Source: Sabellastarte sp. h YS-2021 (Eukaryota > Annelida > Polychaeta > Sabellida > Sabellidae). Taken from it: 64,000 nucleotides of DNA. A program made the translations under genes and the position numbers. The stretch spans positions 5,943,454 to 6,007,453 of the forward strand of contig OZ024938.1 of NCBI GenBank assembly GCA_964017235.1, read 5' to 3'. The notes beneath the pieces were generated by a model, which saw only the letters and a program-made list of their open reading frames with translations, was not told where the DNA came from and made no database searches. Shown here piece by piece: positions 3,871 to 53,142 of this stretch (its first letter is position 1; each line of letters starts with the position of its first letter).

Positions 3871-4207
3871 CGGCGCAAAAATGCTGAGTCGGTTTAAAAT
3901 TTCCCGACAGGACAGTATAGTTACAAACAGGCTGTGATGACCTAAATGACAAGATGTAGGGTCGGGGACGTTTTTTACATGACCAGTCGTGGAACTACTA
4001 TGACAAGCCTTAAACCCATAACCAACAAGCTGCAAAACAAACAGACAAGCCGTAAAGACAGACAGGCCGGGAGCATGTTCCCGACCCATGCCGACAGGGC
4101 TTATTGTTTTTCAGGGTTCGGTAACCAAAGTCAGATCCAGAATCATTATTTCTGCAACACTTTATAAACCCCTGTAACCAGGAAACTGTCACTCATTTCA
4201 CGCTTCA

Positions 4208-6240: not shown

Positions 6241-6383
6241 TCATTCACACAATTTTTTTTCGTGAATTTGGGGGAAGTGTTGGACAGTGTGCTTTTTTTT
6301 GTTTTGGGGAAACAACAGCTGAATAATTTTTTTTAAGATTTGGGTGGCCCTTAAAAGGGCCGGGTTGGTGCGACTTGTGCTGG

Positions 6384-7918
6384 CTAATCCACTGATTTGG
6401 GCTGACTCTGCTCACTGGACTGGCTGGGAGGTCTTGACTGTTTATGATGAGTGGAAGATGGCACTGGTGACAGTGCTGGTTGAAGTTGAGAGGGTGAAAA
6501 TGGTTGTGGTGTGTCCATCTGCTGATACTGTAGAACACTTGGGATGGCACCAAAGAGGCTGGATAATCCTGAAGTGTTATGTTGATTGTCTTCCTGTTGT
6601 CCTGATCCAATGGAAGGCGGGTTAGCTGGCTTTGCCAGACTCAGAGTGAACATGAGCTGTCTGAAAGTCCCAGGCTGTTGGTCATCCACAACTAAGAAAG
6701 ATGCTGGTTGTGCTGATGCTGATGCTGGAAGTGGTGTGCTGTACTTTGGCAATCACTGTAGCAGGCTGCGTTGTGGCTATCTGAGAAGGCTGCACAATTG
6801 GTATGGAGACTGGTTGAGTATCCGGTATGGTGAGTATGTATTCTCGTCCTGCGGTGGCATGTGTTGCTTCTGGAACTTGAAATGTGGTGACCTGTTGACT
6901 CATAGTGACCTGTCTCTTGCGTTTTTCAGCCTTGTACTGTATTTCACTCAGAAACTTCACTGTCTCATTCCTGAAGTTAAGAAAGTCTCTATCTTCAAGG
7001 AGTTCAATCTCGGAGTGGAGATAATTGCAGAACGACTGTCTTTCACTTGGAGTGGGGTCTTGACGTGCACCGAGAAAAGTTGACATCATGGACCTCATCT
7101 GTTGGAACTGGTCTAACACTGGATCCTGAGGAGTTGACGTGGCAACTGTAGCTGGTTGACGCAAAGGGCTGGTGCGTGACAGATGATGAGTAACATTTGA
7201 TGCCATGCTGATTTTTATTTCAGATTCAGTCTCTCTTGAAGTATCAGAAACTGAAGCTATGGCTGCTGAAGGTCGCAGTGGTGATTTGAATCCAGAAGAC
7301 TTGGACACTCCCTTCCTTCTGATGTGACCTCATAGAAAGCTGAAACCGTCCTTCAACCGGGTCCGTCTCTCGGTGTTCTTGGCTGCAGCTTGGCATGACT
7401 TGATCTGTGTGAGCTTGCCATATCTGGTGCATTGAGTCTCGAACCACTCCTTCACAGTACTGACAGGTAAAATCCTGGAAGCTGCAACAGTTTCCCAAAG
7501 TCTTTCTTTCCCCTGCTTGTCTTTGAACTTCTTATGAGTCTTGTCAAATAGCTCCTCATGCTGTTTCATGAAATCAACGATGGCTTCCTCATCTGAATCG
7601 CTGAGAAAGATCGATTTCATCTGTCCTTTCTTCTGTCTGGATTGTGTGCATTCTGGATCTGTATCTGTATCAGTCGTTGATCTCTTTTCTCCTCTATCCT
7701 GTGTCTCCTCTGTTTCTTCTGTCACCTCTATCGTCTCTGTTTCCAGTCTTTCTCTCTCTCTCTCCTCCATCTCTCTCCCCTCTCTCTCCTCCATCTCTCT
7801 CCTCTCCCTCCTCTCTCTTCCTTCTTCTTCTCTCTATATCCTCAGCTGTATCTCCTAACTCAAACTGTGGTTGAGTATCAGTAGGTACTTCAATCTTTCT
7901 CCTACTGCTCCTTGGCAT
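6384..7918 (-). pseudogene. Harbinger accessory MADF/BESS-domain protein, copy 2
   Basis: Start is the ATG at 7918 (MPRSSRRKIEVPTDTQPQFE). An Arg/Glu/Gly-rich low-complexity stretch (7700-7830) follows and contains a frame change. Then comes a MADF domain beginning SDSDEEAIVDFMKQHEELFD and ending near WFETQCTRYGKLTQ (7420-7600), a stop at about 7330, and then in the same frame a BESS-like motif (LDQFQQMRSMMSTFLG) with a FRNETVKFLSEIQ helix (about 6930-7130). The tail is Gln/Pro/Ser-rich (6384-6752, another frame). MADF and BESS pairs are known from DNA-binding adaptor proteins, and Harbinger elements use a Myb/MADF partner of the transposase. Two frame changes and one stop make it non-functional as read. 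Confidence 0.8.
7735..7835. repeat. CT-rich (TCTCTC) low-complexity tract inside the MADF gene
   Basis: CTCTC/CCTCC/TCTCTCC repeats encode the Glu/Arg-rich part on the minus strand. Slippage in this tract explains the frame change between the two ORFs that meet here. Confidence 0.7.
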
Positions 7919-15700: not shown

Positions 15701-18700
15701 CCCAATAGTCTTCAGCAAACAAGTGTATCCTCCTGTGTAAGCTGCACTAATCACAACCTCGAGGAGGACAGCTGGAGGCCACCCATCTGATAGATATGAC
15801 CAACAAAGAAAACCTGACTGACTGTTTTATAATAAGTAACTGATAAATGTTAGATAACTGGACTGTATCATGTTAAACAATAATGACTAATGACAGAATG
15901 GTGAAAACTGTAATTTCAGAAGACTGCCTCAGTTTTATTTAAAAATATAATTTCATAATGCTCAACACCGGATCCTTCCTGTAGAATTTAAATTAAATGT
16001 TTCTTAATGATGGTGGGTTTCTTAGTGATGTATTACAAATGCCCACATCTATTTCACATATCCGTTAAGTAATTAAACTGTTCCATCTCTGGGCTTGACA
16101 AAATGCTGAATACTCAAACAGGAAACAGGTTTTAAAACTTATCTGCAGTGTATATTATATAGAATATAGTGGTGTTTGTTCACACATGAAAGATACAACA
16201 AAACTTTCAATAGCTTATACCTGGACATACTCTCACTTAAACTGACATCATGCTATACACGGGGATCGAACAGGACCACAGGGTCAAGAGCCAACTGAAT
16301 ACATTCACATTAACTGAACACTTGTTAAGGAATATGTAGGCAAGGCAGTAAATTAGATTCTTCTAGCCATGTTAGTTTCTTTCGGGAAATGTTTAATGAA
16401 TTACAGTTTAGGTCACATGACTCATTTCGGCCTTAAAAAATCACTGAATCATTTCTGCTTCTATTTGAGAACTAACATCAAATAGAGGCAAAGATTACAT
16501 AAGATTACAGCCTGTCTCTTGTTTGCGAGAATAAACAGATTAAATTGCTTTCATTTGTATCCTATTCTATTGTAGACCTTTAATAGTGCCAACTCTAGAA
16601 CTAATGCAGTAATAATTATTCAGCGAACATAATTCTATAGGCTGGCTAATTTAGCTCGCAAGAAGTAAATAAACATGCTGCAACCAATCAAGATAGCTGA
16701 TGCAAAAAAAACATTAAGCATTGTAAGCTCGATTCTAATTGGAAGTGCATATATTTAGAACTGAAGTGTCTTCTAAAAGCTCAGCCAATCAGGGCAAATG
16801 ACAAAATAATAACATTTTAATAATTTGCATCATTGTCCAACAAAAAGTTTTCTGAAATTAGTTTCTCGGCATTTCTTGTATCAAGTTCTTTTATAAGCCA
16901 AACCTGATTGATATGTCAATCAAACATCCATTCTATTGATTACCTATGAGAAAGGATTTCTGCATCCTCAGATACTGTCTCTTTGGTACATTTAGTAACT
17001 TACAAACATTCATAGTTTTGAAATCTTGAGAAATTATTTGCCAGGCTTGAGCAGTGTATGGAAGTCATCAGTGTCCTAGTTGGTCAGCAAGTTTGTCATC
17101 TAATCACAGGCTGCCACTGCTTTGTTTGTTTGACTTCCACAAGTGACAATGCTGAGGACCTGTCCCAATGTGACCCGGACGTAAAACCTTTACCTTGACT
17201 CTTTTCAGTGGTTGGATATGGCATAATTTCTGATATTATCTGTTTTCTGGAATCCAGGTTAGATGTATACCCATGTTGATATTTTGGTTACAAATAATAA
17301 AATAATAGAAGCACCGTCAGATTTAAAAGGGAAAATCCAGACCTTTCCCTTTTAGACCTTAAATTTCGCAATATGCAGGGTTTTGGTGCAAATATGGAAA
17401 TTTCTTTCATGAAATATGGCAGTTTCATGCAAAAATTTGCACCATTTGAGACATTTGTCAAAATCACGTAAGTGAAAAAACTCAATAAGCCATCAGAAAA
17501 ACAGCAAATATCCACCTGGAAAAAGGGTGCACCCTAAACACGAAAATGGCCAATTTAATCTTTTTGTAAATAGGGTGTGCCCTAATCACAAAAACTGCAA
17601 ATTTCATCTTTTTATAAATAGGGTGCACCCTAAACACGGAAACTGCAAATTTCCTCTTTTTGTAAATAGGGTGTGCCCTATTCACGAAAACTGCAAATTT
17701 CCTCTTTTTGTAAATAGGGTGCACCCTAAACACAGAAACTGCAAATTTCACCTTTTTGCAAATAGGGTGTGCCCTAAACACGGAAACTGCAATTTTCATC
17801 TTTTTGTAAATAGGGTGTGCCCTAAACACAAAAATGGCAAATTTAATCTTTTTGTAAATAGGGTGCACCCTAAACACGGAAACTGTGAATTTCCTCTTTT
17901 TGTAAATAGGGTATGCCCTAAACACAGAAACTGCAAATTTACTCTTTTTGTAAATAGGGTATGCCCTAAACACAGAAACTGCAAATTTACTCTTTTTGTA
18001 AATAGGGTGCACCCTAAACACGAAAAGAGCAAATTTCACCTTTTTGTAAATAGTGTGTGCCCTAGACACAGATACTGCAAATTTACTCTTTTTGTAAATA
18101 GGGTGCACCCTAAACACGAAAACAGCAAATTTCACCTTTTTGTAAATAGGGTGTGCCCTAGACACAGAAACTGCAAATTTCCTCTTTTTGTAAATAGGGT
18201 GTGCCCTAAACACAGATACTGCAAATTTACTCTTTTTGCAAATAGGGTGTGCCCTAGACACAGAAACTGCAAATTTCCACTTTTTGTAAATACCGTAGGT
18301 TGTGCCCTAAACACAGATACTGCAAATTTACTCTTTTTGTAAATAGGGTGCACCCTAAACACAGAAACTGTGAATTTCCTGTTTTTGTAAATAGGGTGTG
18401 CCCTAAATGCAGAAACTGTAAATTTCCTGTTTTAAGGCGGGTTGTGTGTAACCACCCCGCCTATCAGATGGATGTGTCCGACATCTGTCCACATTTTTTG
18501 TTTCTGGACTCTTACTCGAAAACGGTTTGTCCAATCGAATTCAAACTTGACAGGGACAGAGATCACCATCACAGCTAGGTTTCTTTCGAAATTGGTGTAA
18601 TTCCGTCTGTTTGTTTGTCCGTTTGTCTGTCCGTCCACATTTTCGTTTTCGGACTCTAACTCGAAAACGGTTTGTCCAATCGAATTCAAACTTGACAGGG

Positions 18701-21700
18701 ACATAGATCACCATCATAGCTAGATTCCTTTCAAAATTGGTATATTTCCATCTGTTTGTTTGTTTGTTTGTCTGTTTTTTGACTGTCCATCAAAATTTCC
18801 GTTTCCGGACTCTAACTCGAAAATGGTTTGTCCAATGGAATTCAAACTTGACATAGATAGATCACCATCATAGCTAGGTTCCTTTCAAAATTAGTGTAAT
18901 TCTGTCTGTTCGTTTGTCCATTTTTACCCCACAGCCCTTAAGGGCTGTTGGGGTATTGTTTTCACCCATGGTGTCCGGATGGGCGGGCGGGCGGGGGGGC
19001 GTCCGGGCGGGCGGCGGGAAAAGAGTTTGTCCGGGCTGTATCTCAGAAACCGTAAGGTGTAGGAAGTTGATACTTGGTAGGGACATTGGTTAGGGGGTGT
19101 AGGTGTGCAACGTCATGGTCTGACCTTGATTTGACCTTGCCGTAGTGACCTTGAGTTTGAAAATCTTGTCCGGGCTATATCTCGGAAACCATAAGGTGTA
19201 GGAAGTTGATACTTGGTAGGGATATTGGTTAGGGGGTGTAGGTGTGCAACGTCATGGTGTGACCTTGATTTGACCTTTGACCTTGCCGTAGTGACCTTGA
19301 CCTATAAAATCTTGTCCGGGCTATATCTCAGAAACCGTAAGGTGTAGGAAGTTAATATTTGGTAGGGACATTGGTTAGGGGGTGTAGGTGTGCAACATCA
19401 CGGTCTGACCTTGATTTGACGTTTGACCTTGCTGTAGTGACCTTGACTTATAAAATCTTGTCCGGGCTATATCTCGGAAACCGTAAGGTGTAGAAAGTTG
19501 ATACTTGGTAGGAATATTGGTTAGGGGGTGTAGGTGTGCAGCGTCATGGTCTGACCTTGATTTGACCTTTGACCTTGCCGTAGTGACCTTGACCTATAAA
19601 ATCTTGTCCGGGCTATATCTCAGAAACTGTAAGGTGTAGGAAGTTGATACTTGGTAGGGATATTGGTTAGGGTGTATAGGTGTGCAATGTCATGGTCTGA
19701 CCTTGATTTGTCCTTTGACCTTGCCGTAGTGACCTTGACCTATAAAATCTTGTCCGGGCTATATCTCAGAAACCGTAAGGTGTAGGAAGTTGATACTTGG
19801 TAGGGATATTGGTTAGGGGGTGTAGGTGTGCAATGTCATGGTCTGACAAGGATTTGACCTTTGACCTTGCCGTAGTGACCTTGAGTTCGAAAATCTTGTC
19901 CGGGCTATATCTCGGAAACCGCAAGGTGTAGGAAGTTGATACTTGGTAGGGACATTGGTTAGGGGGTGTAGTTGTGCAACGTCATGATCTGTCCTTGATT
20001 TGACCTTTGACCTTGCTGTAGTGACCTTGACCTATAAAATCTTGTTGCACCTTTGAGTCTGTTTTTTTGATGCAGATTTAGCACTGTTAAAGTCATATTA
20101 GAATTTATTAAGAATTTTACTTTCATAACTTCCCATTGTAAGAGATAGAATTTCATCAAGTGAGCCACAGATTTTGCTCCAACACCACACATAAGCATTC
20201 ATTAAATGTATTACCACTTCTGTATGCATGATAATATTCAAACCATCTAAACCATAATTGGGCCATGCAGGTGTAGATAAAGAGTGTTGAATTTTAGTTT
20301 GCTGATTAATGCTGTTATCTTGTTATTGAATTATCTTGTTTTACTACTTCATCTTTATATGCATTATCTTTCTTTTAAACATTATTTCTCCATTTAAACA
20401 TTGTTTGGACCTTTATATAACTGACAGTGCTCTGAAAGTATCTTGAAGTTTGTACTGGTACAGTACTTCTGTATCTCATGGTGTTGAAAATATTTCCCTA
20501 GGCTGTGGGGTACGAGCATCTCTGATGCTATTTTTTGTCTGTCTGTCAGTCAAAATTTCCATTGCCGGACTCTAACTTGAAAACGGTTTGTCCAATCAAA
20601 TTCAAACTTATCAGGGAGATACATCACCACCATAGCTAGGTTACTTTCGAAATTGGTGTAATTCTGTCCATTCGTTTGTCTGTTTTTTGTCCATTTATTT
20701 GTTCATCAACATTTTCTATTTCCAGACTGTAACTCGAAAACAATGTGTCCAATCAAATGCAAACTTGATAGGGAGATAGATCACCATCATAGCTAGGTTC
20801 CTTTATGAAATTGGTGTAATATTGTCTGTTTGTTTGTTCATCAATGAATTCTGTGCCTTCATTTGTCTGATTTTTGTCCATTTATCTGTTCGTCAACATT
20901 TCTGTTTCCGGACTCTAACTCGAAAATGCTGTGTCCAATCATATTCAAACTTGACAGTTAGATAGATCACCATCATAGCTAGGTTTCCTTTGAAATTGGT
21001 GTAATTTTTTCCATTCGTTTGTTCGTCAACATTTCCGTTTCTGGACTCTAACTCTAAAATGGTTTGTCTTTACATACATTTTCTTTTTCTTAGATGTTTT
21101 TTTCTCTACTTAAACATTATTTGGAGGTTTATGTAACTGACACTGCTCTGAAAGTATCCAGATTTTTGCACTGTATTATTACTCCTGTATCTCATGGTGT
21201 TGAAAACTATTTCCCCAGGCTATGGGGTACAGGCATCTCTGATACTATTTTTTTATTTACAAAGAAAAGGCTTTTAAGAATTACACTCAGCATTATAATA
21301 TAAGCTTTAAAAATCAATTCTTAGCCCGAAATATTAAGAATTTGTAGGAAAAGTTAACTTTTTGATAAACTCCACTCAACAAGGAAAATATACATGCTGA
21401 TCAAAATAAGGGCTCATGGAAAAACATAATAAAGGATATGAAAATGTATGAAAAATGTATATGAAAAATCAGCTATCCTCTGGTTTATGCTGTATCTTTT
21501 CACACTTTTATGTAATCAGTGTAAATACACATACAACACTTTGAACAATCTCAGTCACTTTTTTATGTTTAGTTTGTACCAAAAAGTTAAAGATTTAACA
21601 TCTTAATATTGGAAATTGATCTTAACAGCAGTACATGTATTTTACAGTAAATAGGTTAAACCAGTAAATTTGCATATTTACTAAGATTTTGAGTAAAGGG

Positions 21701-24700
21701 ATGCATTCGCTGAATTGATTAGCAAATATGCATATTTTTTTTTAAAAAAAATCAATATTTTCTTAGTTAAATCTAAAATGCTTTCGCTTATTTTATTTTT
21801 ACTTATTTTATATTTTGATCTGCAAGATTTAATAAACCAAACCTAGCTGGACATTTTAGTATTTTACTTCATAAAATACACCAAATTTGTTTCAAATGAA
21901 ATGTAAACTATCTTAATATTTTCTACAAATGATTACATAAAACCCTGTAAATAAATCTTATTTTCATAAATCTTGGTTTGTTGTTTGAAGGCTTTATGTC
22001 CTCAACTTGATCTGATATTTCATTTGAAGTCACATTTACCTGATGGCCACTGACTTTTAAGCACTAATCCATTATAGTAGTCTAATTTTTCAGAGCTTCC
22101 GTAATAAAAATATATTTAAATTATTTCCAAAAAATGTGAGCAAAACACACAAAACACCTTGAACACTCAACTGTATCAAAACATATGACTTCTAATCCAC
22201 CACACTTCACTACTCCTTCTTGTACAATGTAAACCCATTATCTGACTTTCAGTCTTATCTTAATTGAGGTCACAGTGGGGGAAGAGACTGACCTGTCTTG
22301 CCACTGAGAAAAACAAATGTATGTTACTTGTTGTGTAATTTGAGTGTGTGTCCCTTAATTTATCTAGGCTCTCTCTTGTAGGTGTGTACAACATCTCAGT
22401 GGGGTTTATCAGTCCAGCATGTATCTCTGACATTATAAAGACCCCTGTACCCCACTGCACACACTTGATTTACACCGTCTAGGAAAAATCTATGAGAATG
22501 GTGGTAGTTGAGTAAACATACAGGTACAAAATGAACACACACCCAAGTGAAATTTCTGTAAAGCCTGAATCCTGATTTTTTCTTACTTAAAATAAGCGAC
22601 TCCAGTCCAATTTGAGACTTTTTTAGAAGTCTCAAATTTTAAAGAGTTTTGTAAAGTTTACAATTTTAGGTACAAATTGGACACATTTTCTGATGTCATG
22701 AGAAAAGGGTAAACTAAGTGAGAAAAAAAAATGTCTTCATAAGTTACAAGTCATGCACTTTCCTTCAGTTGTTTTACTTAATGTATACTTTTAGTGCTTA
22801 CTCTTGTTGGAGTATTAAATTTTGTATTACTCTTTGTATATTTAAGTTTGTATATCTGGAAATAGAACATATTTGTAAAATGTATTCAGTCCCACTCTAA
22901 TGTAAAATTCTTGCCATTCAAACACACCACTAATTTGGTTTTCTCAGCCTCATCTTAATTATCTGAAAGACTGGGATGAGATTTATCTCTAGGAGAGGAC
23001 ACAGTCCTAGGAATTATACCATCCCAACCCCTCAAACTTGAGGGAGGGCTTATCTGCTCCCCCACTGCAAGTGTTTATGCTACCTGAAGACCAGGTAATT
23101 AATAGCCCATCATCTGCATGTGTCTTGTGGCTGTAAGTGACTACTCTCTCATTTAAAATGTGTTGCCAGTACTGGAAGAAAGCAAGTATACTTATCAAAC
23201 CCAAACCACATTTACCTGTTGAATATATGCTTGTAAAAAGAAGCATGTGTATACTGTTTCTATGTTTTTCCTTCACTGTAATTTAATGAAAGAGTCATAT
23301 TTTATTAGTACTCGCATTTATTATCTCCACCAAGAGGTATTGTTGTCATAACCGTTTGTCTATCTGTTTGTCAGAAGGGTTACATAATTACTACTGCTTG
23401 GGTCACTTAGATCTTATTTCTTAATCTTAGATCCTATTAAATTTTGACTGATCTGGATCACTGTCTGGATACAAAATAATAATAATAAATAATAATAATC
23501 CAGAAACATGTTGTTACTTTTAAAAGATACCTTATCTAGCAAGGATGATTAATTCTTCAAGGCATGCAGATTTGTCTGTTCGTCTGTTCTCCAGAGCCGC
23601 TAGATAAGAGGTACTCCCATGAAAAGTGTGAAAATTTCACCTGTTTATCACAATTTTCTCAATGACCATTGAAGGGATTTCTCCCTATCTTAGATATACA
23701 TGTATGTACTATGACACAAGTAGATTCCCTTATGTGAGTATCAGGCCAGGATATTTTTAAATTAATTTGTGTAAATTTTTAGCTTAAAGTATCTGATCTT
23801 TGTCGAAACGTCCATTTAATAAAATATTGTCAGGAATAAGATTAGCGAACTGGTTTATTTTGTAAATATACTGTAAAACAATTTGGAAGAAAACTTCCTC
23901 CAAAATAAGAAACGGATTGACAGAAAAATGAACTCACGTCATAACTTCTAGGACATGCAAAAGCGCCTTCGAGTGGTTGAAAGTAGAACTACGGAGTTTG
24001 AATATTTTCATTGTCGATTCTGATTGGCTGAACGACAAATGTATAGTACTACCGTGACGTCACTTCATTCATTAATTTCTTTCCGGTTTATTATCTCCCG
24101 CCGGGCTTTAGCCCGGGAGGGAGATTATGAAATGATGTCTGTGTGTGCATGCATGCGTGCGTGCGTGCGTGTGTGCGTGCGTTAGTTAGTCATGCAGATT
24201 TCTCCAAAACTACTACAGCTACAGATATTTTGTAAATTAATTGTCCCAATGAATTTTCATGCCCTTGAAAATTTTTTTGGTTTTATTGACTTAGGCCTAA
24301 AGATAAGTGAGTAATAGCAATCTTAGCTATTTTGAGTAAAGGGCTCATAACTCAAAAACTATTGCAGTAACAACTTTTTCTTCAAATATGTTGTTTAGCT
24401 ACTTTGTCCTTAGCTATAAGATGGTACATAGTTTGGGGTCCCATTGCATGCCATAAGTGAGTAATAGCTATTTTCTCATTTGTAGCTAAATAACAGAAGA
24501 AGTAAATGTCAAATATCTTCAAAAGTATTGAAGTTAGGGAAATCTTTTCAAATATGTTGTCCATCTTCTTTTTGGTAAGATATCACATACTAAAGTTTCA
24601 GACCTGTTGCACCTTGGATAGCTGAGTAATAGCTACTTTGAAATTCTGACTGGTGAGTAAAGCGATTGTAACTCCAAAACTATTGCAGTTAGAGTATTTT

Positions 24701-27700
24701 CCTAAAATATGTTGTTCAGCTACTTTGTCCTTAGCTATAAGATGGTACATAGTTTGGGGTTCTAATGCATGCCATAAGTGAGTAATAGCTATTTTCTCAT
24801 TTGTAGCTAAATAACAGAAGAAGTAAATGTCAAATATCTTCAAAAGTATTAAAGTTGGGGAAATCTTTTCAAATATGTTGTCCATCTACTTTTTGGTAAG
24901 CTATGACATAGTAAAGTTTCAGACCTGTTGCACCTTGGATAGCTGAGTAATAGCTACTTTGAAATTCTGACTGTTGAGTAAAGCCATTGTAACTCCAAAA
25001 CTATTGCACTTAGAGTGTTTTCCTAAAATATGTTGTTCAGCTACTTTGTTCGTAGCTATAAGATGGTACATAGTTTGGGGTTCTGTTGCATGCCATAAGT
25101 GAGTAATAGCTATTTTCTCATTTGTAGCTAAATAACAGAAGAAGTAAATGTCAAATATCTTCAAAAGTATTAAAGTTAGGGAAATCTTTTCAAATATGTT
25201 GTCCATCTACTTTTTGGTAAGCTATGACATAGTAAAGTTTCAGACCTGTTGCACATTGGATAGCTGAGTAATAGCTACTTTGAAATTCTGACTGTTGAGT
25301 AAAGCCATTGTAACTCCAAAACTATTGCAGTTGGAGTATTTTCCTAAAATATGTTGTTCAGCTACTTTGTTCTTAGCTATAAGATGGTACATAGTTTGGG
25401 GTTCTATTGCATGCCATAAGTGAGTAATAGCTATTTTCTCATTTGTAGCTAAATAACAGAAGAAGTAAATGTCAAATATCTTCAAAAGTATTGAAGTTAG
25501 GGAAATCTTTTCAAATATGTTGTCCATCTACTTTTTGGTAAGCTATAACATAGTAAAGTTTCAGACCTGTTGCACCTTGGATAGCTGAGTTATAGCTACT
25601 TTGAAATTCTGACTGTTGAGTAAAGCCATTGTAACTCCAAAACTATTGCAGTTAGAGTATTTTCCTAAAATATGTTGTTCAGCTACTTTGTCCTTAGCTA
25701 TAAGATGGTACATAGTTTGGGGTTCTATTGCATGCCATAAGTGAGTAATAGCTATTTTGTTATTTGTAGCAAAATCATGACATAAGTAAATGTCAAATAT
25801 CTTCAAAAGTATTAAAGTTAGGGAATTATTTTCAAATATGTTATCCATCTACTTTTTCATAAGCTATCACATAGTAAAGTTTCAGATCTGTTGCACATTG
25901 GATAGCTGAGTAATAGCTACTTTGAAATTCTACAGTTGAGTAAATCCATTGTAACTCCAAAACTATTGCAGTTACAGCTTTTTCTTCAAATATGTTGTTC
26001 AGCTACTTTGTCCTTAGCTATAAGCTGGCATGTAGTTTGGGGTTCTATTGCATGCCACAAGTGAATAATAGCTATTTTCTTATTAGTAGCAAAATAATGA
26101 CATAAGTAAATGTCAAATATCTTCAGAAGTATTAAAGTTACGGAATTCTTTTCAAATATGTCATTCATCTACTTTTTTGTAAGCTATCACATAGTAAAGT
26201 TTCAGACCTGTTGCACATTGCATAGCTAAGTAATAGCTACTTTGAAATTGTGACTGTTGAGTAAATCCATTGTAACTCAAAAACTATTGCAGTTACAGCT
26301 TTTTCTTCAAATATGTTGTTCAGCTACTTTGTCCTTAACTATAAGATGGTATATATTTTGGGGTAGTATTGCATGCCATAAGTGAGTAATAGCTATTTTC
26401 TTATTTGTAGCAAAATAACAACATAAGTAAATGTCAGATATCTTCAAAAGTATTAAAGTTAGGGAAATATTTTCAAATATGTTATCTAGTTTTTGATAAC
26501 CTATCACATAGTAAAGTTTCAGACCTGTTGCACATTGGATAGCCGAGTAATACCTACTTTGAAATTGTGACTGTAGGGTAAATGCATATAATTTGGGGTT
26601 CTATTGCATGCCATAAGTGAGTAATAGCTATTTTCTTATTTGTGGCAAAATAATGACATAATTTTTCTCAAATAACTGCTTCATCTACTTTTGGGAGAGC
26701 TTTCACATGGTGAAGTTTCAGACCCGTAGCTAATTATTCACCTACTCAAAATGAGTAAATGATAATTATCTCTAAAAGTATTGCGGATATCCAATTTTTA
26801 TCAAATAACTCATTCATCTACTTTTGGAAGAGCTTTCACATGGTGAAGTTCCAGACCCGTAGCTAATTACTCACCTACTCAAAATGAGTAAATGTGAATT
26901 ATCCCTAAAAGTATTAGGGATATCCAATTTTTCTTAAATAACTCATTCACCTACTTTTGGAAGAGCTTTCACTTGGTGAAGTTTCAGACCCGTAGCTAAT
27001 TATTCACCTACTCAAAATGAGTAAATGCTAATTATCTCTAAAAGTATTGTGGATATCCAATTTTTATCAAATTACTCGTTCATCTACTTTTGGGAGAGCT
27101 TTCACATGGTGAAGTTCCAGACCCGTAGCTAATTACTCACCTACTCAAAATGAGTAAATGTGAATTATCTGTAAAAGTATTGCAGATATCCAATTTTTCT
27201 CAAATAACTCATTCACCTACTTTTGGGAGAGCTTTTACTTGGTGAGGTTTCAGACCCATAGCTAATTATTCACCTACTCAAAATGAGTGAATGTGAATTA
27301 TCTCTAAAAGTATTGCGGATATCCAATTTTTATCAAATAACTCATTCATCTACTTTTGGGAGAGCTTTCACATGGTGAAGTTCCAGACCCGTAGCTAATT
27401 ACTCACCTACTCAAAATGAGTAAATGTGAATTATCTCTAAAAGTATTGGGGATATCCAATTTTTCTTAAATAACTCATTCACCTACTTTTGGAAGAGCTT
27501 TCACTTGGTGAAGTTTCAGACCCGTAGCTAATTATTCACCTACTCAAAATGAGTAAATGCTAATTATCTCTAAAAGTATTGTGGATATCCAATTTTTATC
27601 AAATTACTTGTTCATCTACTTTTGGGAGAGCTTTCACATGGTGAAGTTCCAGACCCGTAGCTAATTACTCACCTACTCAAAATGAGTAAATGTGAATTAT

Positions 27701-30700
27701 CTGTAAAAGTATTGCAGATATCCAATTTTTCTCAAATAACTCATTCACCTACTTTTGGGAGAGCTTTTACTTGGTGAGGTTTCAGACCCGTAGCTAATTA
27801 TTCACCTACTCAAAATGAGTAAATGTGATTTATCTCTAAAAGTATTGCGGATATCCAATTTTTATCAAATAACTCATTCACCTACTTTTGGGAGGGCTTT
27901 CACATGGTGAAGTTCCAGACCCGTAGCTAATTACTCACCTACTGAAAATGAGTAAATGTGAATTATCTCTAAAAGTATTGCAGATAGCCAATTTTTATCA
28001 AATAACTCATTCACCTACTTTTGGGAGAGCTTTCACTTGGTGAATTTTCAGAGCCATAGCTAATTATTCACCTCCTCAAAATGAGTAAATGCTAATTATC
28101 TGTAAAAGTATTGCGGGTATCCAATTTTTATCAAATTACTCGTTCATCTACTTTTGGGAGAGCTTTCACATGGTGAAGTTTCAGACCCGTAGCTAATTAT
28201 TCACCTACTCAAAATGAGTAAATGATAATTATCTCTAAAAGTATTGCGGATATCCAATTTTTATCAAATAACTCATTCATCTACTTTTGGAAGAGCTTTC
28301 ACATGGTGAAGTTCCAGACCCGTAGCTAATTACTCACCTACTCAAAATGAGTAAATGTGAATTATCCCTAAAAGTATTAGGGATATCCAATTTTTCTTAA
28401 ATAACTCATTCACCTACTTTTGGAAGAGCTTTCACTTGGTGAAGTTTCAGACCCGTAGCTAATTATTCACCTACTCAAAATGAGTAAATGCTAATTATCT
28501 CTAAAAGTATTGTGGATATCCAATTTTTATCAAATTACTCGTTCATCTACTTTTGGGAGAGCTTTCACATGGTGAAGTTCCAGACCCGTAGCTAATTACT
28601 CACCTACTCAAAATGAGTAAATGTGAATTATCTGTAAAAGTATTGCAGATATCCAATTTTTCTCAAATAACTCATTCACCTACTTTTGGGAGAGCTTTTA
28701 CTTGGTGAGGTTTCAGACCCATAGCTAATTATTCACCTACTCAAAATGAGTGAATGTGAATTATCTCTAAAAGTATTGCGGATATCCAATTTTTATCAAA
28801 TAACTCATTCATCTACTTTTGGGAGAGCTTTCACATGGTGAAGTTCCAGACCCGTAGCTAATTACTCACCTACTCAAAATGAGTAAATGTGAATTATCTC
28901 TAAAAGTATTGGGGATATCCAATTTTTCTTAAATAACTCATTCACCTACTTTTGGAAGAGCTTTCACTTGGTGAAGTTTCAGACCCGTAGCTAATTATTC
29001 ACCTACTCAAAATGAGTAAATGCTAATTATCTCTAAAAGTATTGTGGATATCCAATTTTTATCAAATTACTTGTTCATCTACTTTTGGGAGAGCTTTCAC
29101 ATGGTGAAGTTCCAGACCCGTAGTTAATTACTCACCTACTCAAAATGAGTAAATGTGAATTATCTGTAAAAGTATTGCAGATATCCAATTTTTCTCAAAT
29201 AACTCATTCACCTACTTTTGGGAGAGCTTTTACTTGGTGAGGTTTCAGACCCGTAGCTAATTATTCACCTACTCAAAATGAGTAAATGTGATTTATCTCT
29301 AAAAGTATTGCGGATATCCAATTTTTATCAAATAACTCATTCACCTACTTTTGGGAGGGCTTTCACATGGTGAAGTTCCAGACCCGTAGCTAATTACTCA
29401 CCTACTGAAAATGAGTAAATGTGAATTATCTCTAAAAGTATTGCAGATAGCCAATTTTTATCAAATAACTCATTCACCTACTTTTGGGAGAGCTTTCACT
29501 TGGTGAATTTTCAGAGCCATAGCTAATTATTCACCTCCTCAAAATGAGTAAATGCTAATTATCTGTAAAAGTATTGCGGGTATCCAATTTTTATCAAATT
29601 ACTCGTTCATCTACTTTTGGGAGAGCTTTCACATGGTGAAGTTCCAGACCCGTAGCTAATTACTCACCTAATCAAAATGAGTAAATGTGAATTATCTGTA
29701 AAAGTATTGCAGATAGCCAATTTTTCTCAACTCATTCACCTACTTTTGGGAGAGCTTTCACTTGGTGAAGTTTCACACCCGTAGTTAACTACTCACCTAC
29801 TCAAAATGAGTAAATGCGAATTATCTCTACAAGTATTGCAGATAGCCAGTATTTCTGAAATAACTCATTCACATACATTTTGGAGAGCTTTCAATTAGTG
29901 AATTTTCAGATCCGTAGCTAATTACTCACCTACTCAAAATAAATAACTGCCTATTATCACTAAAAGTATTGCAGATAGCCAATATTTCTCAAATAACTCA
30001 TTCACCTACATTTTGGAGAGCTTTCACATGCTAAATTTTTTTAATGAATTTTTAAAATAATTTTTAATGCATTAAAATTCATGAAATCATGCACTAAATC
30101 AAATATAACTTGAAAAGTATTACATTTAGAGCACCTTGTTAAAATATGTTATCTTTAGTACATCTCATTTATATGGCGGGAGATAAATGCATGCGGCAGA
30201 ATGCTTGTTTGTTTGACAAATGAGTAATATGCTGTAGATGCGCAGACAACAATTTTATATTAACAGTGACTGCGTGATAAACCAGCAGACCAATAAATTA
30301 ATTGGGGTTTCCACGACTATAAACCAGCAGACGAAACCGTTAAAAAAGACTCGTTCGAGTAGACCATCACAAAAGCAAAAACAATAGTTTCTAGGACATC
30401 TGGGACTTTACAGAAAGCCAGACGTAGTGCTAGACATGCTTTTTACTTTATAAAATATAACTTAATAAAGGCATTAAAAATCTACAAAATGGCAGAGTGT
30501 ATAATATACACCTTAATGTACAGATATGTGAAGAAATATTATGCAGAATTTAATATTTAAGGGCTTAAACGGCCAATTTAAAATCTTGGCCGCAGCTCAG
30601 TACATAACTCGAATCAAAGATTCGACTAATAAAAAACTAGACCAAGGACGCCAGATGCAAGATGTATCTCCTTGTCTTACTCCACTTGTTGTTTGGAATA

Positions 30701-33700
30701 ATCAGTGGAATTCTGATTAAGTTTAACTTGGGCATTTATCTGTGTGTAGAAGTTTTTGATTGAGGAAAATATTTTCCCAGTGATACCATACTCTCAGATT
30801 GTTTAGCAATATTTCACAATTTACCCAATCAAAAGCTTTTTAGAAGTCAATAAAAAGCAACAAATGTAGTTTGTTCCATGCCTAGTCTATTTCTTACAAT
30901 GCTTGTTAATTTGTATATGTGATGTACGTGTTCTAGGGAAAAAGTGTAAAATTTCCCATTCCCCTTCTCATGACCCTCCCAGGTATCATACCCCACTGTG
31001 AGTTCTAGTGCTGTCAGTTGTCAGGTTGTGTTTTCTGTCATTTGATAACACATATATGTTAGTGTACTTGTAGTAAACTGTCTTTCCAATTATTTTAATG
31101 AGTTTTCAGTGTTGTGTGTACATACACTGGGAATAAGGAAAATATTCAATTTTGGCTTGTTTTTGATTGTAAAGGATTATTGGAAAAAAGAAACAAATTA
31201 AAAAAAAACCTGCATCAGTCAATATCCAGAGTATATTTTAGTAACCTTGAAGCTATTTCTCATTTTTGTGGTAGACCTCTAAATCATGTAACCCCTTTTA
31301 AGAATAAGCGAGTTACAAGTACTTTAAGGTTTCGCTATCCTTGTTTCACCCTAAAGTATAGGTATGAAGTGAAGCACTTCAAATGGTGTCACTTCCTATC
31401 TCTTTCCCCTTGTGTGTTTAACTAATAATATTCGATAAATATTTCAATAATGTGCTGTATTAACATATGAAAATAGGTCTAAAATAGTGATATGGAGAGT
31501 GGAGTAGTGGACAAATCCATACGGAAAAACACTTTTTCAGTACCATGGCCCCTCTCAAAATTGTGATTTTTACATCCCTTTCAAAAGCCAGGAGTCAGTT
31601 TTGGGAATTGAACCCACCCAGAGTTGTGACCAAGCAAAAAGGCACACTACTGTACATTTACCATGGTTTTTGTTGTAAATGTATTGGGAAGGGTTGGATG
31701 TAACTGAATATGTAGCTGATTTAATTGAATTTTGAAATGTTTTTTTTTTAAGTTTAAGGATAATTTTGTTTGAAAAGATTTAAATTTGCAACTGAAGGAA
31801 ATTGCATGACTTGTAACTTATCAAGACATTTTTTTCTCATGTAGTTTACCCTTTTCTCATGACATTAGAAAATATGTCCAATTAGTACATAAAATTGTAA
31901 ACTTTACAAAACTCTTTAAAATTTGATACTTCCAGAAAAGTCTCAAATTGGATTGGGGTCACTTATTTTAAGCAAAAAAATAAATAAATAAATAAAAGAA
32001 AATAAATAAAAGAAAATAGGATTCAGGCTTTACAGAAATATTTCACTTGGGTATGTGTTCATTTTTTACCTGTATGTTTACTCAACTACCACCATTCTCA
32101 AAGACTTTTTTCCATGACTGTGTAAATCAAGTGTGTGCAGTGGGGTAAAGGGGTCATTATAATGTCAGAGATACATGCTGGACTGATAAACCCCACTGAG
32201 ATGTTGTACACACCTACAAGAGAGAGCCTAGATAAATTAAGGGACACACTGAAATTACACAAGCAACATATATTTATCTTTCTCAGTGGCAAGATAGGTC
32301 AGACTCTTCCCCCACTGTGACCTCAATTAAGATAAGACTGAAAGTCAGATAATGGGTTTACATTATACAAGAAGGAGTAGTGAAGTGTGGTGGATTAGAA
32401 GTCATATGTTTTGATACAGTTGAGTGTTCAAGGTGTCTTGTGTGTTTTGCTCACATTTTTTGGAAATAATTTAAATATATTTTTATTACGGAAGCTCTGA
32501 AAAATTAGACTACTATAATGGATTAGTGCTTAAAAGTCAGTGGCCATCAGGTAATTGTGACTTCAAATGAAATATCAGATCAAGTTGAGGACATAAAGCC
32601 TTCAAACAACAAACCAAGATTTATGAAAATAAGATTTATTTACAGGGTTTTATGTAATCATTTGTAGAAAATATTAAGATAGTTTACATTTCATTTGAAA
32701 CAAATTTGGTGTATTTTATGAAGTAAAATACTAAAATGTCCAGCTAGGTTTGGTTTATTAAATCTTGCAGATCAAAATATAAAATAAGTAAAAATAAAAT
32801 AAGCGAAAGCATTTTAGATTTAACTAAGAAAATATTGATTTTTTTTTTAAAAAAATATGCATATTTGCTAATCAATTCAGCGAATGCATCCCTTTACTCA
32901 AAATCTTAGTAAATATGCAAATTTACTGGTTTCACCTATTTACTGTAAAATACATGTATTGCTGTTAAGATTAATTTCCAATATTAAGATGTTAAATCTT
33001 TAACTTTTTGGTACAAACTAAACATAAAAAAGTGACTGAGATTGTTCAAAGTGTTGTATGTGTATTTACACTGATTACATAAAAGTGTGAAAAGATACAG
33101 CATAAACCAGAGGATAGCTGATTTTTCATATACATTTTTCATACATTTTCATATCCTTTATTATGTTTTTCCATGAGCCCTTATTTTGATCAGCATGTAT
33201 ATTTTCCTTGTTGAGTGGAGTTTATCAAAAAGTTAACTTTTCCTACATATTCTTAATATTTAGGGCTAAGAATTGATTTTTAAAGCTTATATTATAATGC
33301 TGAGTGTAATTCTTAAAAGCCTTTTCTTTGTAAATAAAAAAATAGTATCAGAGATGCCTGTACCCCATAGCCTGGGGAAATAGTTTTCAACACCATGAGA
33401 TACAGGAGTAATAATACAGTGCAAAAATCTGGATACTTTCAGAGCAGTGTCAGTTACATAAACCTCCAAATAATGTTTAAGTAGAGAAAACAACATCTAA
33501 GAAAAAGAAAATGTATGTAAAGACAAACCGTTTTAGAGTTAGAGTCCGGAAACAAAAATGTTGACGAACAAACGAACGGACAAAATTACACCAATTTCAA
33601 AGGAAACCTAGTTATGATGGCGATCTATCTGTCAAGTTTGAATGTGATTGGACACAGCATTTTCGAGTTAGAGTCCGGAAACAGAAATGTTGACGAACAG

Positions 33701-36700
33701 ATAAATGGACAAAAATCAGACAAATGAAGGCACAGAATTCATTGACAAACAAACAAACGGACAAAATTACACCAATTTCAAAAAGGAACCTAGCTATGAT
33801 GGTGATCTATCTCCCTGTCAAGTTTGCATTTGATTGGACACAGTGTTTTCGAGTTAGAGTCTGGAAATAGAAAATGTTGATGAACAAATAAATGGACAAA
33901 AAACAGACAAACGAATGGACAGAATTACACCAATTTCGAAATTAACCTAGCTATGGTGGTGATGTATCTCCCTGATAAGTTTGAATTCGATTGGACAAAC
34001 CGTTTTCAAGTTAGAGTCCGGCAATGGAAATTTTGACTGACAGACAGACAAAAAATGGACAAACGAACAGACAGAATTACACTAATTTTGAAAGGAACCT
34101 AGCTATGATGGTGATCTATCTCAATGTCAAGTTTGAATTCCATTGGACAAACCATTTTCGAGTTAGAGTCCGGAAACGGAAATTTTGATGGACAGTCAAA
34201 AAACAGACAGACAAACAAACAAACAGATGGAAATACACCAATTTTGAAAGGAATCTAGCTATGATGGTGATCTATGTCCCTGTCAAGTTTGAATTCGATT
34301 GGACAAACCGTTTTCGAGTTAGAGTCCGAAAACGAAAATGTGGACAGACAGACAAATGGACAAACAAACAGACGGAATTACACCAATTTCGAAAGAAACC
34401 TAGCTATGATGGTGATCTCTGTCCCTGTCAAGTTTGAATTCGATTGGACAAAACGTTTTCGAGTAAGAGTCCAGAAACAAAAATTGTGGACAGATGTTGG
34501 ACACATCCATCTGATAGGCGGGGTGGTTACACACAACCCGCCTTAAAACAGGAAATTTACAGTTTCTGCATTTAGGGCACACCCTATTTACAAAAACAGG
34601 AAATTCACAGTTTCTGTGTTTAGGGTGCACCCTATTTACAAAAAGAGTAAATTTGCAGTATCTGTGTTTAGGGCACAACCTACGGTATTTACAAAAAGTG
34701 GAAATTTGCAGTTTCTGTGTCTAGGGCACACCCTATTTACAAAAAGGTGAAATTTGCTGTTTTCGTGTTTAGGGTGCACCCTATTTACAAAAAGAGTAAA
34801 TTTGCAGTATCTGTGTCTAGGGGACACACTATTTACAAAAAGGTGAAATTTGCTGTTTTCGTGTTTAGGGTGCACCCTATTTACAAAAAGAGTATATTTG
34901 CAGTATCTGTGTTTAGGGCACACCCTATTTACAAAAAGTGGAAATTTGCAGTTTCTGTGTCTAGGGCACACCCTATTTACAAAAAGGTGAAATTTGCTGT
35001 TTTCGTGTTTAGGGTGCACCCTATTTACAAAAAGAGTAAATTTGCAGTTTCTGTGTTTAGGGCACACCCTATTTACAAAAAGAGGAAATTCACAGTTTCC
35101 ATGTTTAGGGCACACCCTATTTACAAAAACTGGAAATTTGCAGTTTCTGTGTCTAGGGCACACCCTATTTACAAAAAGATGAAATTTGCTGTTTTCGTGT
35201 TTAGGGTGCACCCTATTTACAAAAAGAGTAAATTTGCAGTTTCTGTGTTTAGGGCACACCCTATTTACAAAAAGAGGAAATTCACAGTTTCCGTGTTTAG
35301 GGTGCACCCTATTTACAAAAAGATTAAATTTGCCATTTTTGTGTTTAGGGCACACCCTATTTACAAAAAGATGAAAATTGCAGTTTCCGTGTTTAGGGCA
35401 CACCCTATTTGCAAAAAGGTGAAATTTGCAGTTTCTGTGTTTAGGGTGCACCCTATTTACAAAAAGAGGAAATTTGCAGTTTTCGTGAATAGGGCACACC
35501 CTATTTACAAAAAGAGGAAATTTGCAGTTTCCGTGTTTAGGGTGCACCCTATTTACAAAAAGATGAAATTTGCAGTTTTCGTGATTAGGGCACACCCTAT
35601 TTACAAAAAGATTAAATTGGCCATTTTCGTGTTTAGGGTGCACCCTTTTTCCAGGTGGATATTTGCTGTTTTTCGAATGGCTTATTGAGTTTTTTCACTT
35701 ACGTGATTTTGACAAATGTCTCAAATGGTGCAAATTTTTGCATGAAACTGCCATATTTCATGAAAGAAATTTCCATATTTGCACCAAAACCCTGCATATT
35801 GCGAAATTTAAGGTCTAAAAGGGAAAGGTCTGGATTTTCCCTTTTAAATCTGACAGTGCTTAATAGGCAATATTATTAAAGTCATTGTTTTCATTAAATT
35901 AAGTTAATTATTGATATTTAGATGCTGTTATTTTCTCAGTGGAAATTCTGGTAACTACCCAAATGCTTTACTACAATGATTTACAAAAAAATGAACTCAC
36001 TTTTCCACCAATTTACAAGCAATCCCGAAGTTGTATTCATGAAAGGGATGAGTCATTGTTGAGTTTGGTCTGGATATGAGATTTAATTCTCAGCTTAGTT
36101 TTTCTACGCAAACTGTAGCTCTGACAGAAAATAGGCTGATATTTAATGTCGTTGATTTTGTGATAACCAGCTGTAAGAAGATATTAAAATAAATAAGTCA
36201 CCCTCCAATTAGTTTTAAATCCAGAGAATAAGTAAGACGGAGTCTCATACCAATCACGAATCTGTGAACTGAGAATATTAATTTAGTTATTTGGGTTTTA
36301 ACATCACTTTCGGCACTGTACAGGTCATATCACGATGGGTAGTTTTAAGGGCAGTGGAAACCAGTACATACAGTTGATCAAGGTTCTGTACAGTAAAGTG
36401 CCGGCCATTGGTAAGCAACCACCAACTTGCAACATAGGGTCCAGGATTTGAATCGCAGACCTCAGAGGTGGGAGGCGAGTGTGTTACCACTGGACCTTTG
36501 TGGCCCCTCACTAATTGAGAACAAGAAAAACCTCTCACAATATCTGGGGTTTGCCTCAGAATAATCAGCTTAGGTCCAAACTGTATTGTAAACATTGAAT
36601 CACCTTTTTCCCATCTCTGGGTTTTAAATTGCAATCTTTTTCTCTGTATCGACCTACAATCAGCCTTTCTAGTGGAGATTAAGCGCTATAAAAGCTGCTT

Positions 36701-39700
36701 GGGATCAGAAATCAAGCCGTTTTCTTGTGTTTTGTGTAAATATCTTATATAAATAAATGTAAAGGACTTTATAGTTGGGGTGGGAACTGATCGCTTGGCA
36801 ACAACTGGCCCTAAAATCCACCAAGGAAATGGGTTGGAGTGCTTCAAACACTCAGAGGTAATCTCTATCATTATTCAGCAAGTCTTGACAAGTCCTAACT
36901 GTGCTGTAGTTCAGGGGACTACCATACATAACTTTATTCTGTCCATCTTTTGCCACCCTGAGATACAGCATACTGCAGAAACAGCAAATAGAAATCCCAG
37001 GTACAGATATTCAGTTTGACAACAAATTACATCCAAGTTTATGTCATGTGTGGATTATTTTTTTACACAATGTTGTTGTCTTAGTGTGGTCATAAACGAT
37101 GGTCCGGATGTGAATCTGGATTGTAAATCTAGAATTGTTTTTTTGCCAATTTTTATTGGCAATATCCGCGGCTGAGGATTGTTTGATTACCAGAATTTTA
37201 TTTATTTATTTGGGGTTTTACGTCGCTTTCAACACTGTACAGTTCATATCACGACGGGTAGTTGGAAGGGCAGAGGAAACCAGTACATACAGTTCGTTAG
37301 GGTTCTGTACTGTAAACTGCCGAACCCCGACCTCAGAGGTGGGAGGCGAGAGTGTTACCACTCTGCCACCGTGGCCCCTGTTTGATTGCCAGAAACTGAT
37401 TCATATAAATGGAAGTTGTTATATTTTATGTTGGTGAAAATTTGTTTTATATTGTACGATTATTTATTGAGAATTCTAACAGATTCACTAATTTCTGAAA
37501 CATATACATTGAAAATAATATAATATAGTATACATTCAATAATTACACCATGAAATGTATATATTGAATGATCGAACCATGAAATGTATACATCCAATGA
37601 GAAAACTGTTGAATAAAGACATTCAAGGAGAAAAAACTATGTAATGTATACAAAACTTTATAGTATAAAAACTCCAGGATGTTTGAAAGACGTGAAAATA
37701 CTTTTATGATTATAGAAACTTCAGGATGTTTGAAAGACATGATTTAATGTATGATTTTTGGGGGGTTTCAATATCCACTCAAAGCTTCTTTTTGGAAAAT
37801 AAGGGTATTGCAGAGTGACACAGAGCAACATGCTTGAGTGTTTTGGGGAAATGGGCTTATAAAAATATTGAATAGAAAGTGGGTGTAGACTTATATACAT
37901 ACGTATATCATTTACGTCAAAAGGCGTCAAAAATTATAATTGCTTTATTAATTGTGAAGTGTCATTTTGTTGCTCAACATTTTCCTTTTCAATGAACAGT
38001 CACTCATTAAGCATATAGTTTTACAAAGTAGTCTAACATAATACACGCTTACTTAAGTTTAAAAGACTTTTCATGACTTTTTAATCAGATTTGATTTCTT
38101 CTCTACAATACATAGCTCAGTCTATGGAATCTGTATGTTTTTGTTGACAACATGTGTTTATATGAAGCATATCCAATGTATTTTTCTTGGGTTTTAAGGC
38201 TCTTTTATAAGAATGCTGATTTGTGAACCTGGACTATCTGTGTCTTGAGGTCTCTAGGCTGTGGATATTTTTTTACCATTTTAATGATATGGAAATAAAT
38301 AAAATAACACTATGTAATATATTGTAAGGGAATTCTTATTTCAAAATATAAGCAGAGTTAAAACTGGAGGGCACTCATAGTGCATAAAACCTCTATAATC
38401 TATATAATAGAGTTTTGAAAGCAACATTAAACCCCAAATAAATAAATAAATCCGCCAGGGGGCGTTTAAGAAAATTTGGTATAATTATAGCATCGGGAAT
38501 ATGATGTAGATTTTCACCCAAAATGTGATCGTACTTTACTACCCCCGACAAAAAAATTATCATAAATATCCACTCATGACATTTTGGTTCATTTCAATCA
38601 GAAAGATAAAGACACTGAAATTACATTGAAATGTAGATAAAATATATAAACAGACAGGCAGATAAACGTATCTAACAACGTAGCCTGGTGGAAGTAATTA
38701 TATTTTCTGGAAAAGACAGCCTTAGAAAGGCTTACATCAATGTGTACTTTCTGAAAGCACACAACACACTTCCTCCTCTACTGTCACCATGCCAACTGAA
38801 ATATGATCAACTTCAGGCCTATTTCTTTTTACTTTCACTTTTTTTTCTAAGTAATGGTCATAAAATACCCTCTGTTAGGTTTATGTGACAGCATAAAGAC
38901 ACAAATTGTACAGGCCTTATAGAACTGATAAGACCCCCCCCCCCCCTTATGTACATATATGCAAAATGCATCTTTATATTAAGGAAGCTACACGAGAAAA
39001 TATACAGACATACGTTTCTCAAATAAAATTTGTTTCATCTCTAGATATATGTCTTTGTCATCAAAGTTTTCACTGGTTTTGATTAGATTTGATTTATTTG
39101 TTGTTTTACGTCGCGTTCAACAGCCAGGGTCATATTGCGACGGGTAGTTTATGGGTGGAGGAACCAGTGTATACTGCACTGTAAACCACCGGGCATCGGC
39201 AAGTAACTACCAACTTTCCCACATGAAGCCCCCGGGCCGAGATTCGAACCGGCAACCTCAGAGGTTGAAGGCGGGCACTCTGACCACTACACCACCGACC
39301 CCCCTTCACATGTTTTGAAAATCAAAGTAACAAACCCATGATACTTTCCTTATTCTTTGATAATGTAACAGCTGCAAAGCTAATCAGTCTCTACAAAACT
39401 ATCAGTGGTAATTTTCCCAGAATAAGAAAAAACTTTAGAAAATTAAAAAAAATAATACAAAAAGTACGTTTTATTCAAATAATGGTGGCTTTTTTAGTTA
39501 TTTATTGAAAATTTTAATTAAGATAAAAGTTAAAATAAACAACTCTTGAATGAAAAGTAATTTTTTGTCGTCCCCTTCACTTTACTTTTCATTTCTGTTT
39601 CTTTCAAAGTCAATTAGCTTGTACTACGTTTCAAATTTAGACCAAAAACTTTTGAGTTTGTGGTTTGTAGACGAATTTCTTGTCATACCAGTGTTGATAC

Positions 39701-53111: not shown

Positions 53112-53142
<31 letters not shown>

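Follow-up and report, generated by a model that had tools for sequence, protein, structure and literature searches.

A giant palindromic element of Foldback type and its family in the genome of the polychaete Sabellastarte

The stretch of DNA considered here (the window) is 64,000 bp long and comes from contig OZ024938.1 (positions 5,943,454 to 6,007,453) of assembly GCA_964017235.1 of the sabellid polychaete Sabellastarte sp. h YS-2021. It contains an 18.5-kb palindrome, made of two long inverted arms and a loop. With a probability of about 0.9, we regard it as belonging to a family of giant Foldback-like class II transposons that are non-autonomous and were active recently. The family is new and its build is that of the Foldback type, with long inverted arms that carry internal tandem repeats and with dispersed copies that have target duplications and empty sites (two of the nine sites compared). 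An earlier note, made from the letters of the window alone, had proposed a Foldback-like mobile element. This proposal is borne out by the evidence described below: termini that match at 117 places, ends that face each other in pairs, duplicated target sites and two empty sites that align cleanly.

Distribution of the family in the genome

The host assembly that was searched comprises 1,785,957,881 bp in 647 contigs, which are given here under short handles (C1, C3 and so on). With the 221 bp of the left end as query, 40 of 247 candidates were scored, and all 40 match at 98-100%. The exact 23-bp terminus, AAGCACYGTCAGATTTAAAAGGG, has 117 matches in the genome (57 forward and 60 reverse) and its reversed control has none. 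The 23-bp ends were paired by hand at 100 of the 117 places, termini that differ from the 23-mer being excluded; a further search located five of the other 17. Among these 100 listed ends there are 37 facing pairs within 60 kb, spanning 13.5-48.1 kb with a median of 21.1 kb, the shortest being the one of 13.5 kb; by simple arithmetic, independent placement would yield about 0.1 pair within 50 kb. Copies are present on at least 13 contigs, members are mostly about 14 to 30 kb in size, and all 30 ends retrieved by similarity to the end of the window copy have the terminus AAGCAC. The search of the arm termini that the earlier note had suggested thus yielded both other copies and empty sites, and not a sole copy or an inverted duplication without an empty site.

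Flanks were read for 33 pairs, namely 30 of the 37 listed pairs together with the window copy and the copies on C20 and C21. An exact 4-bp repeat lies flush with the AAGCAC...GTGCTT ends in 22 of them. When left and right flanks from different copies are put together, a 4-bp match occurs in 24 of 1,056 combinations (binomial P of about 1e-28 against the true pairs). No match longer than 5 bp is present among the 33 pairs, the counts being 0/33 for 6 bp and 0/33 for 7 bp. The consensus at the 22 duplicated targets is TTTAC-ATAT-GTAAA, and the target profile is closer to its own reverse complement than shuffles are (p = 0.006).

The joined flanks of nine pairs were compared with retrieved genome loci, and two of the nine have clean empty sites. 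At C11:26.25M, the match runs for 390 bp without a gap at 98.2% and contains one ATAT, while at C11:100.9M it covers 395 bp at 90.4%, and its single gap lies elsewhere than at the junction shown.

Structure of the copy in the window

Self-comparison of the window gives the two arms, of about 4 kb each, that the earlier note had described. The features of this copy are as follows; the HINE-like elements are taken up in the next section.

17304..17308, no strand: left target duplication AATAG of the window copy, 5 bp
17309..35861, no strand: whole element, 18,553 bp, ends AAGCAC...GTGCTT
17309..22771, + strand: left arm, including the nested 1.6-kb insert
17309..17519, + strand: outermost 211 bp, left (31 ends compared, 0.9% mean difference)
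17324..17354, + strand: subterminal hairpin with an 11-bp stem and a 9-nt loop, mirrored in the right arm
17520..18433, + strand: left 48-bp array, 19 units, each around the near-palindrome TAGGGTGYRCCCTA or a variant of it
18434..18924, + strand: 145-bp repeat block of the left arm, which resumes at 20530-21060
18926..20530, + strand: HINE2, nested HINE-like insert, in the left arm only, in a T run and without target duplication
21061..22771, + strand: inner part of the left arm; divergence from the right arm is higher in its innermost 440 bp
21067..21253, + strand: an older HINE's right flank, shared by the two arms at equivalent positions, 82.4% to its HINE2 counterpart
22772..24092, no strand: left loop spacer
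24093..30204, + strand: HINE3, nested 6.1-kb HINE-like element with a 321-bp array (seven units) and a 133-bp array (25 units)
30205..31788, no strand: right loop spacer, with a sub-threshold reverse-transcriptase trace
31789..35861, - strand: right arm, 4,073 bp
34545..35650, - strand: right 48-bp array, 23 units; its outer and inner ends are in register with those of the left array
35651..35861, - strand: outermost 211 bp, right
35862..35866, no strand: right target duplication AATAG of the window copy, 5 bp

The flanks of the window copy read AATAG|AAGCAC on the left and GTGCTT|AATAG on the right. The earlier note was right that the outer ends are flanked by a duplication; the ends lie one base further out than it had them, and the 7-bp pair TAATAGA/TAATAGG arose because the start was taken one base too far inside, the true repeat being the 5-bp AATAG. 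Since a flank match of this type would occur by chance at the window site in about 1% of cases, the window alone is unable to decide whether the element is mobile.

When the nested 1.6-kb insert (about 18926-20530) is set aside, the left arm has a length of 3,858 bp, and it aligns with the right arm with 95 mismatches in 3,842 columns (97.5% identity); another alignment gave 95 in 3,840. The match stops abruptly at 22771, as had been claimed, with only 31% identity in the next 29 columns. Divergence is higher in the innermost 440 bp (27 mismatches in 436 columns) than in the remainder of the arms (68 in 3,404; Fisher P = 3e-6), and the mismatches between the arms are clustered, a pattern that patchy conversion would give.

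From the outside to the inside, each arm consists of the 211 bp with the hairpin, the 48-bp array, the 145-bp repeats, the right flank of the old HINE and about 1.5 kb of further sequence. At either end, none of 200 shuffles folds as well as the subterminal hairpin. The 48-bp arrays, whose presence near the ends agrees with the earlier description of subterminal tandem arrays, contain 14 perfect palindromes among their 42 units. Units within one array are 84-85% identical, while each of the 19 left units has a best match of 96-100% in the other arm. This higher identity across the arms, together with the presence of the old HINE in both, indicates that the copying between the arms is later than both the formation of the array and the landing of the old HINE. 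In the left array, the nine outer and four inner units find their best right-arm match in register, and the central part of the arrays has undergone reshuffling after that copying.

A coding reading of the 48-bp arrays was considered and rejected. Their frames of 288 and 352 aa gave no relatives in one protein search per strand, and the open frames on both strands are explained by a repeat length divisible by 3. The Pfam families DUF2553 and Fer4_20 pass their curated cut-offs on the frame of the right-arm array only by summed repeats, no single stretch passing, and are taken as artefacts.

Nested passengers and coding content

The loop of about 9 kb that the earlier note described is present, with the correction that two thirds of it is HINE3, a nested element of the Helentron type. 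The Helentron-type Cg_HINE of Crassostrea gigas, in the part of its description consulted here, has a subterminal inverted repeat, a 3' palindrome, central satellite-like arrays and T-rich insertion sites without duplication (PMC7492417). These features fit HINE2 and HINE3, that is, the passengers and not the foldback element itself. HINE2 has the arrays, a left hairpin (0 of 200 shuffles as good), a 3' stem (6 of 200) and a T-run site without duplication, and its subterminal inverted repeat can be seen by eye; the uninterrupted insertion site of HINE2 is preserved in the right arm. HINE3 has the arrays and the left hairpin; its 3' palindrome is visible by eye, with a fold not beyond that of shuffles (26 of 200). 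Without HINE2 and HINE3, the element would have a size of about 10.8 kb.

Six-frame Pfam scans of the inner arm and the spacers (21060-24090 and 30200-31789) detected no protein family, a transposase included, in agreement with the earlier remark that the element has no visible transposase or coding capacity. The right spacer has a trace of a reverse transcriptase at about 30666-30875 (- strand), below threshold with an E value of 0.075. Searches of viral contigs and prokaryote genomes gave 0 matches. In the literature covered, by title and beginning of abstract and excluding most subscription journals and the repeat databases, no description of the element was found, and a search for its motif gave no exact match.

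Comparison of copies

Six copies were retrieved around both of their ends, one each on C1, C4, C5 and C21 and two on C11 (C11a and C11b), that on C5 without its last 145 bp, which were retrieved separately. All six repeat the arms and, by subfamily, the same nested elements. C11b (18.3 kb) and C21 (24.7 kb) match the window copy in their entire build, with HINE2 and a HINE3 (in two matching pieces) at the corresponding places. Besides HINE2, C5 and C1 share an additional HINE-like insertion in the left arm and a HINE3-type element at 91.7%. HINE2 is lacking from C4 and C11a, whose loop sequence, common to both, is different from that of the window copy; two loop open reading frames (ORFs), both from C11a, were scanned without a Pfam match, and by eye the loop ORFs of C4 and C11a resemble DIRS gag. 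The left arm of the C21 copy holds a DIRS-like retroelement (L041:2353-6956) with RVT_1 above the cut-off and a tyrosine-recombinase match below it. Because internal insertions have the same position on different contigs, the passengers travel with the element, which transposes as a single unit of 18-25 kb together with what it carries. With arms of this kind in six copies on five other contigs, it is also unlikely that the palindrome is an assembly artefact.

In the spacer parts compared, the copies have a mean difference of 0.8-1.1%, and C5 and C1 differ by 0.10-0.16%; this low divergence shows that transposition is recent. A tree of the inner arms covers 11 of the 14 arms, those absent being the left arms of C5 and C1, which are split by the insert, and the right arm of C11a. 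Left arms cluster apart from right arms, with only the right arm of C21 among the left ones, and the separating branch has a support of 0.95. This arm-specific grouping indicates that the palindrome is older than the spread of these copies and that conversion between arms continues.

A copy on C6, 39 kb long, has the family ends and the 4-bp duplication ATAT, and it encloses an integrase with a chromodomain, an adenain-like protease and an ATPase-like ORF, the last two near the Pfam cut-offs. ORFs that resemble polB and capsid by eye have no Pfam match; four that were tried have no match in PHROGs, and the capsid-like one has no convincing match in PDB. The long open frames lie in a Polinton (L061:1533 to L062:4963) with inverted repeats of its own (L061:1533-1786 and L062:4709-4963), which start with AGTAGT and are 98.8% identical over 255 columns. 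It is bordered by an exact 6-bp ATTGCA and sits within a HINE array. The right-hand inner arm of the C6 copy is about 90-91% to those of the other copies, so the C6 copy is an older one.

Other candidates for an autonomous or coding copy were rejected. The locus L012 (C1:172131495-172134712) was reread as a rearranged copy with its terminal 242 bp inverted; it adjoins exons that resemble eIF2-gamma by eye, and a second end on the same strand lies 20 kb away. Short copies with coding cores were looked for in a central 2-kb piece of the 13.5-kb copy, where the longest open frame has 68 aa; the first half of this sequence is HINE-like and the second half is unmatched among the loci compared.

Alternative explanations and relation to known elements

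Several observations weigh against a mobile Foldback-like family. Among the 100 listed ends, 26 are without a facing exact-match partner within 60 kb. An exact flush duplication is absent in 10 of the 33 pairs, and in the window copy, one of the 33, it has 5 bp and not 4. The palindromic target signal comes from 22 AT-rich sites, at which shuffles average 0.63 against 0.80. Seven of the nine joined flanks have no clean empty site (four have no spanning match and three only gapped ones), and the join at C3:20.7M, a pair without exact duplication, has about 6 extra bases at the junction. The empty sites do not demonstrate excision, because they are paralogous repeats and not alleles. Several other supports in the inner-arm tree are low. 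Finally, neither a transposase nor an autonomous partner was found, no genome-wide search for a transposase having been made, and the enzyme is one that we infer.

Taken alone, the window would fit an ordinary immobile inverted segmental duplication of host DNA, given its abrupt inner and outer ends, the high identity of its arms and the 1% chance of its flanking repeat. The genome-wide copies refute this explanation, for which hardly any probability remains: the same ends occur at 117 places, the 4-bp duplications are found in 22 of 33 pairs, two empty sites are clean, and the flanks differ between copies. It is highly improbable that the family belongs, as a non-autonomous branch, to the P superfamily and depends on a THAP transposase, as the kinship with Galileo proposed in the earlier note would imply. 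The likeness to Galileo of Drosophila is considerable in the portions of its published account used here: a Foldback-like build, long repetitive terminal inverted repeats (TIRs) with tandem repeats in unequal numbers, TIRs lengthened by inner sequence, chimeric copies without matching duplications and copies without transposase (PMC3573991). Galileo differs, according to the same portions, in having 7-bp duplications and a longest TIR of 1.26 kb (PMC3573991), where the present family has 4-bp duplications (with no 7-bp match in the 33 pairs), arms of about 4 kb, pairs of 13.5-48 kb and AAGCAC ends; the proposed kinship is not supported on this ground. Furthermore, no THAP or P transposase is present in the inner arm and spacers of the window, a P gene elsewhere in the genome not having been searched for. 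That the family derives from Polinton/Maverick elements, with the C6 copy as the autonomous form, is very unlikely, even though that copy combines family ends and the ATAT duplication with the genes it encloses. These genes lie between their own AGTAGT repeats flanked by ATTGCA, inside the HINE array; a tblastn search with 12 ORFs of this copy (E 1e-3) gave nothing in the window or the six other copies, and 6-bp duplications are absent from the 33 pairs. The Polinton, with its own TIRs and 6-bp duplication, was therefore rejected as the autonomous partner and is a nested passenger of the C6 copy.

Academ and Chapaev elements make 4-bp duplications, and Ginger ends are TGT...ACA. A refinement compatible with the Foldback-like family, in which the enzyme is an integrase-like transposase as in Ginger or belongs to another known superfamily that duplicates 4 bp (Sola2, Academ or Chapaev), has slightly less than an even chance. 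The family agrees in duplication length with Ginger1 (4 bp) and Ginger2 (4-5 bp), as given in the part of the source consulted (PMC10045372), and Sola2 is described, in an excerpt, as duplicating AT-rich 4-bp targets (PMC3627910). The AAG...CTT end is unlike the TGT...ACA of the related IS481EU (PMC10045372, in part), and no gene of any of these four kinds was linked to AAGCAC ends. Tetris, a foldback element of Drosophila virilis, is similarly non-coding and has tandem repeats in its TIRs, with no autonomous copy found as far as the consulted part of its description goes; it differs in its 8-10 bp duplications and in having only three structurally complete copies (PMC4079207). Tm1 of Meloidogyne (Mutator/Foldback), in the sections consulted, has composite TIRs made largely of tandem units, in numbers unequal between the ends, and nested insertions; its duplications are mostly 9 bp and its elements 0.17-2.6 kb (PMC3169594). 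Membership in the Mutator, FB, Tetris and Tm1 group is not supported, the 8-10 bp duplication being absent, with no match longer than 5 bp in the 33 pairs. For the whole element, a Helitron or Helentron was also rejected, as target duplications and long TIRs are contrary to that class.

Other features of the window

A fragment of a Harbinger-type transposase lies at 4178-5195 (+ strand); of its two overlapping frames, the second matches DDE_Tnp_4 at E 1.5e-15, and the protein collection contains 837 relatives at E 1e-10. A histone 3' stem-loop (Rfam RF00032, 38 bits) is found at 6322-6366 (- strand), and no histone was recognised by eye among frames of at least 90 aa. It lies downstream of an ORF with a MADF domain (7333-7833, - strand), which may be a Harbinger accessory gene. 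At 54454-54876 (- strand) there is a reverse-transcriptase fragment of a long interspersed nuclear element (RVT_1, E 4e-7). A short dispersed repeat has at least five copies (36281-36495, 37197-37323, 46409-46565, 56293-56508 and 61039-61205), with direct matches of 76-94%. A Pfam scan of the three + strand frames of 50000-59992 for a host gene gave no match.

Proposed mechanism and significance

A DDE-type transposase made elsewhere would most likely act on the element in trans. It would bind the outer 211 bp and probably also the near-palindromic 48-bp units, cut at the AAGCAC ends and join them, with a stagger of 4 bp, to AT-rich targets of weakly palindromic sequence. That the 48-bp units may serve as extra binding sites is plausible by analogy with Galileo, for which, in the portions consulted, multiple binding sites in long TIRs are discussed as having evolved convergently and as a possible aid to transposition (PMC3573991). 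An older HINE would have landed in one arm, and the arms would then have grown by copying of one side onto the other, through gap repair or conversion, because insertions are shared by both arms; the same source describes such growth for Galileo TIRs (PMC3573991). From then on, the left and right arms would mostly have kept to separate lines of descent as the copies transposed, apart from at least one conversion later on.

A bolder proposal, which we consider rather unlikely though worth stating, is that an undescribed transposase, possibly of a new superfamily, recognises the AAGCAC ends and the near-palindromic 48-bp arrays and moves DNA of 20-40 kb, integrating it with a 4-bp stagger into targets that are AT-rich and palindromic. 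The foldback would then be a growing vehicle that collects and redistributes HINEs, DIRS-like retroelements and even a whole Polinton.

Non-autonomous DNA transposons are mostly small. The efficiency of transposition falls as the distance between the TIRs grows, according to the part of the source consulted (PMC6431247). Facing pairs in this family, as far as the 100 listed ends show, span 13.5-48 kb, with none shorter, and two of its copies are only 0.1-0.16% apart in the spacer parts compared. The question of which enzyme moves such long palindromes thus becomes testable, as does that of whether the 48-bp arrays offset the size. The spread of passengers, and of palindromes that are plausible inversion breakpoints, through an animal genome becomes testable as well.

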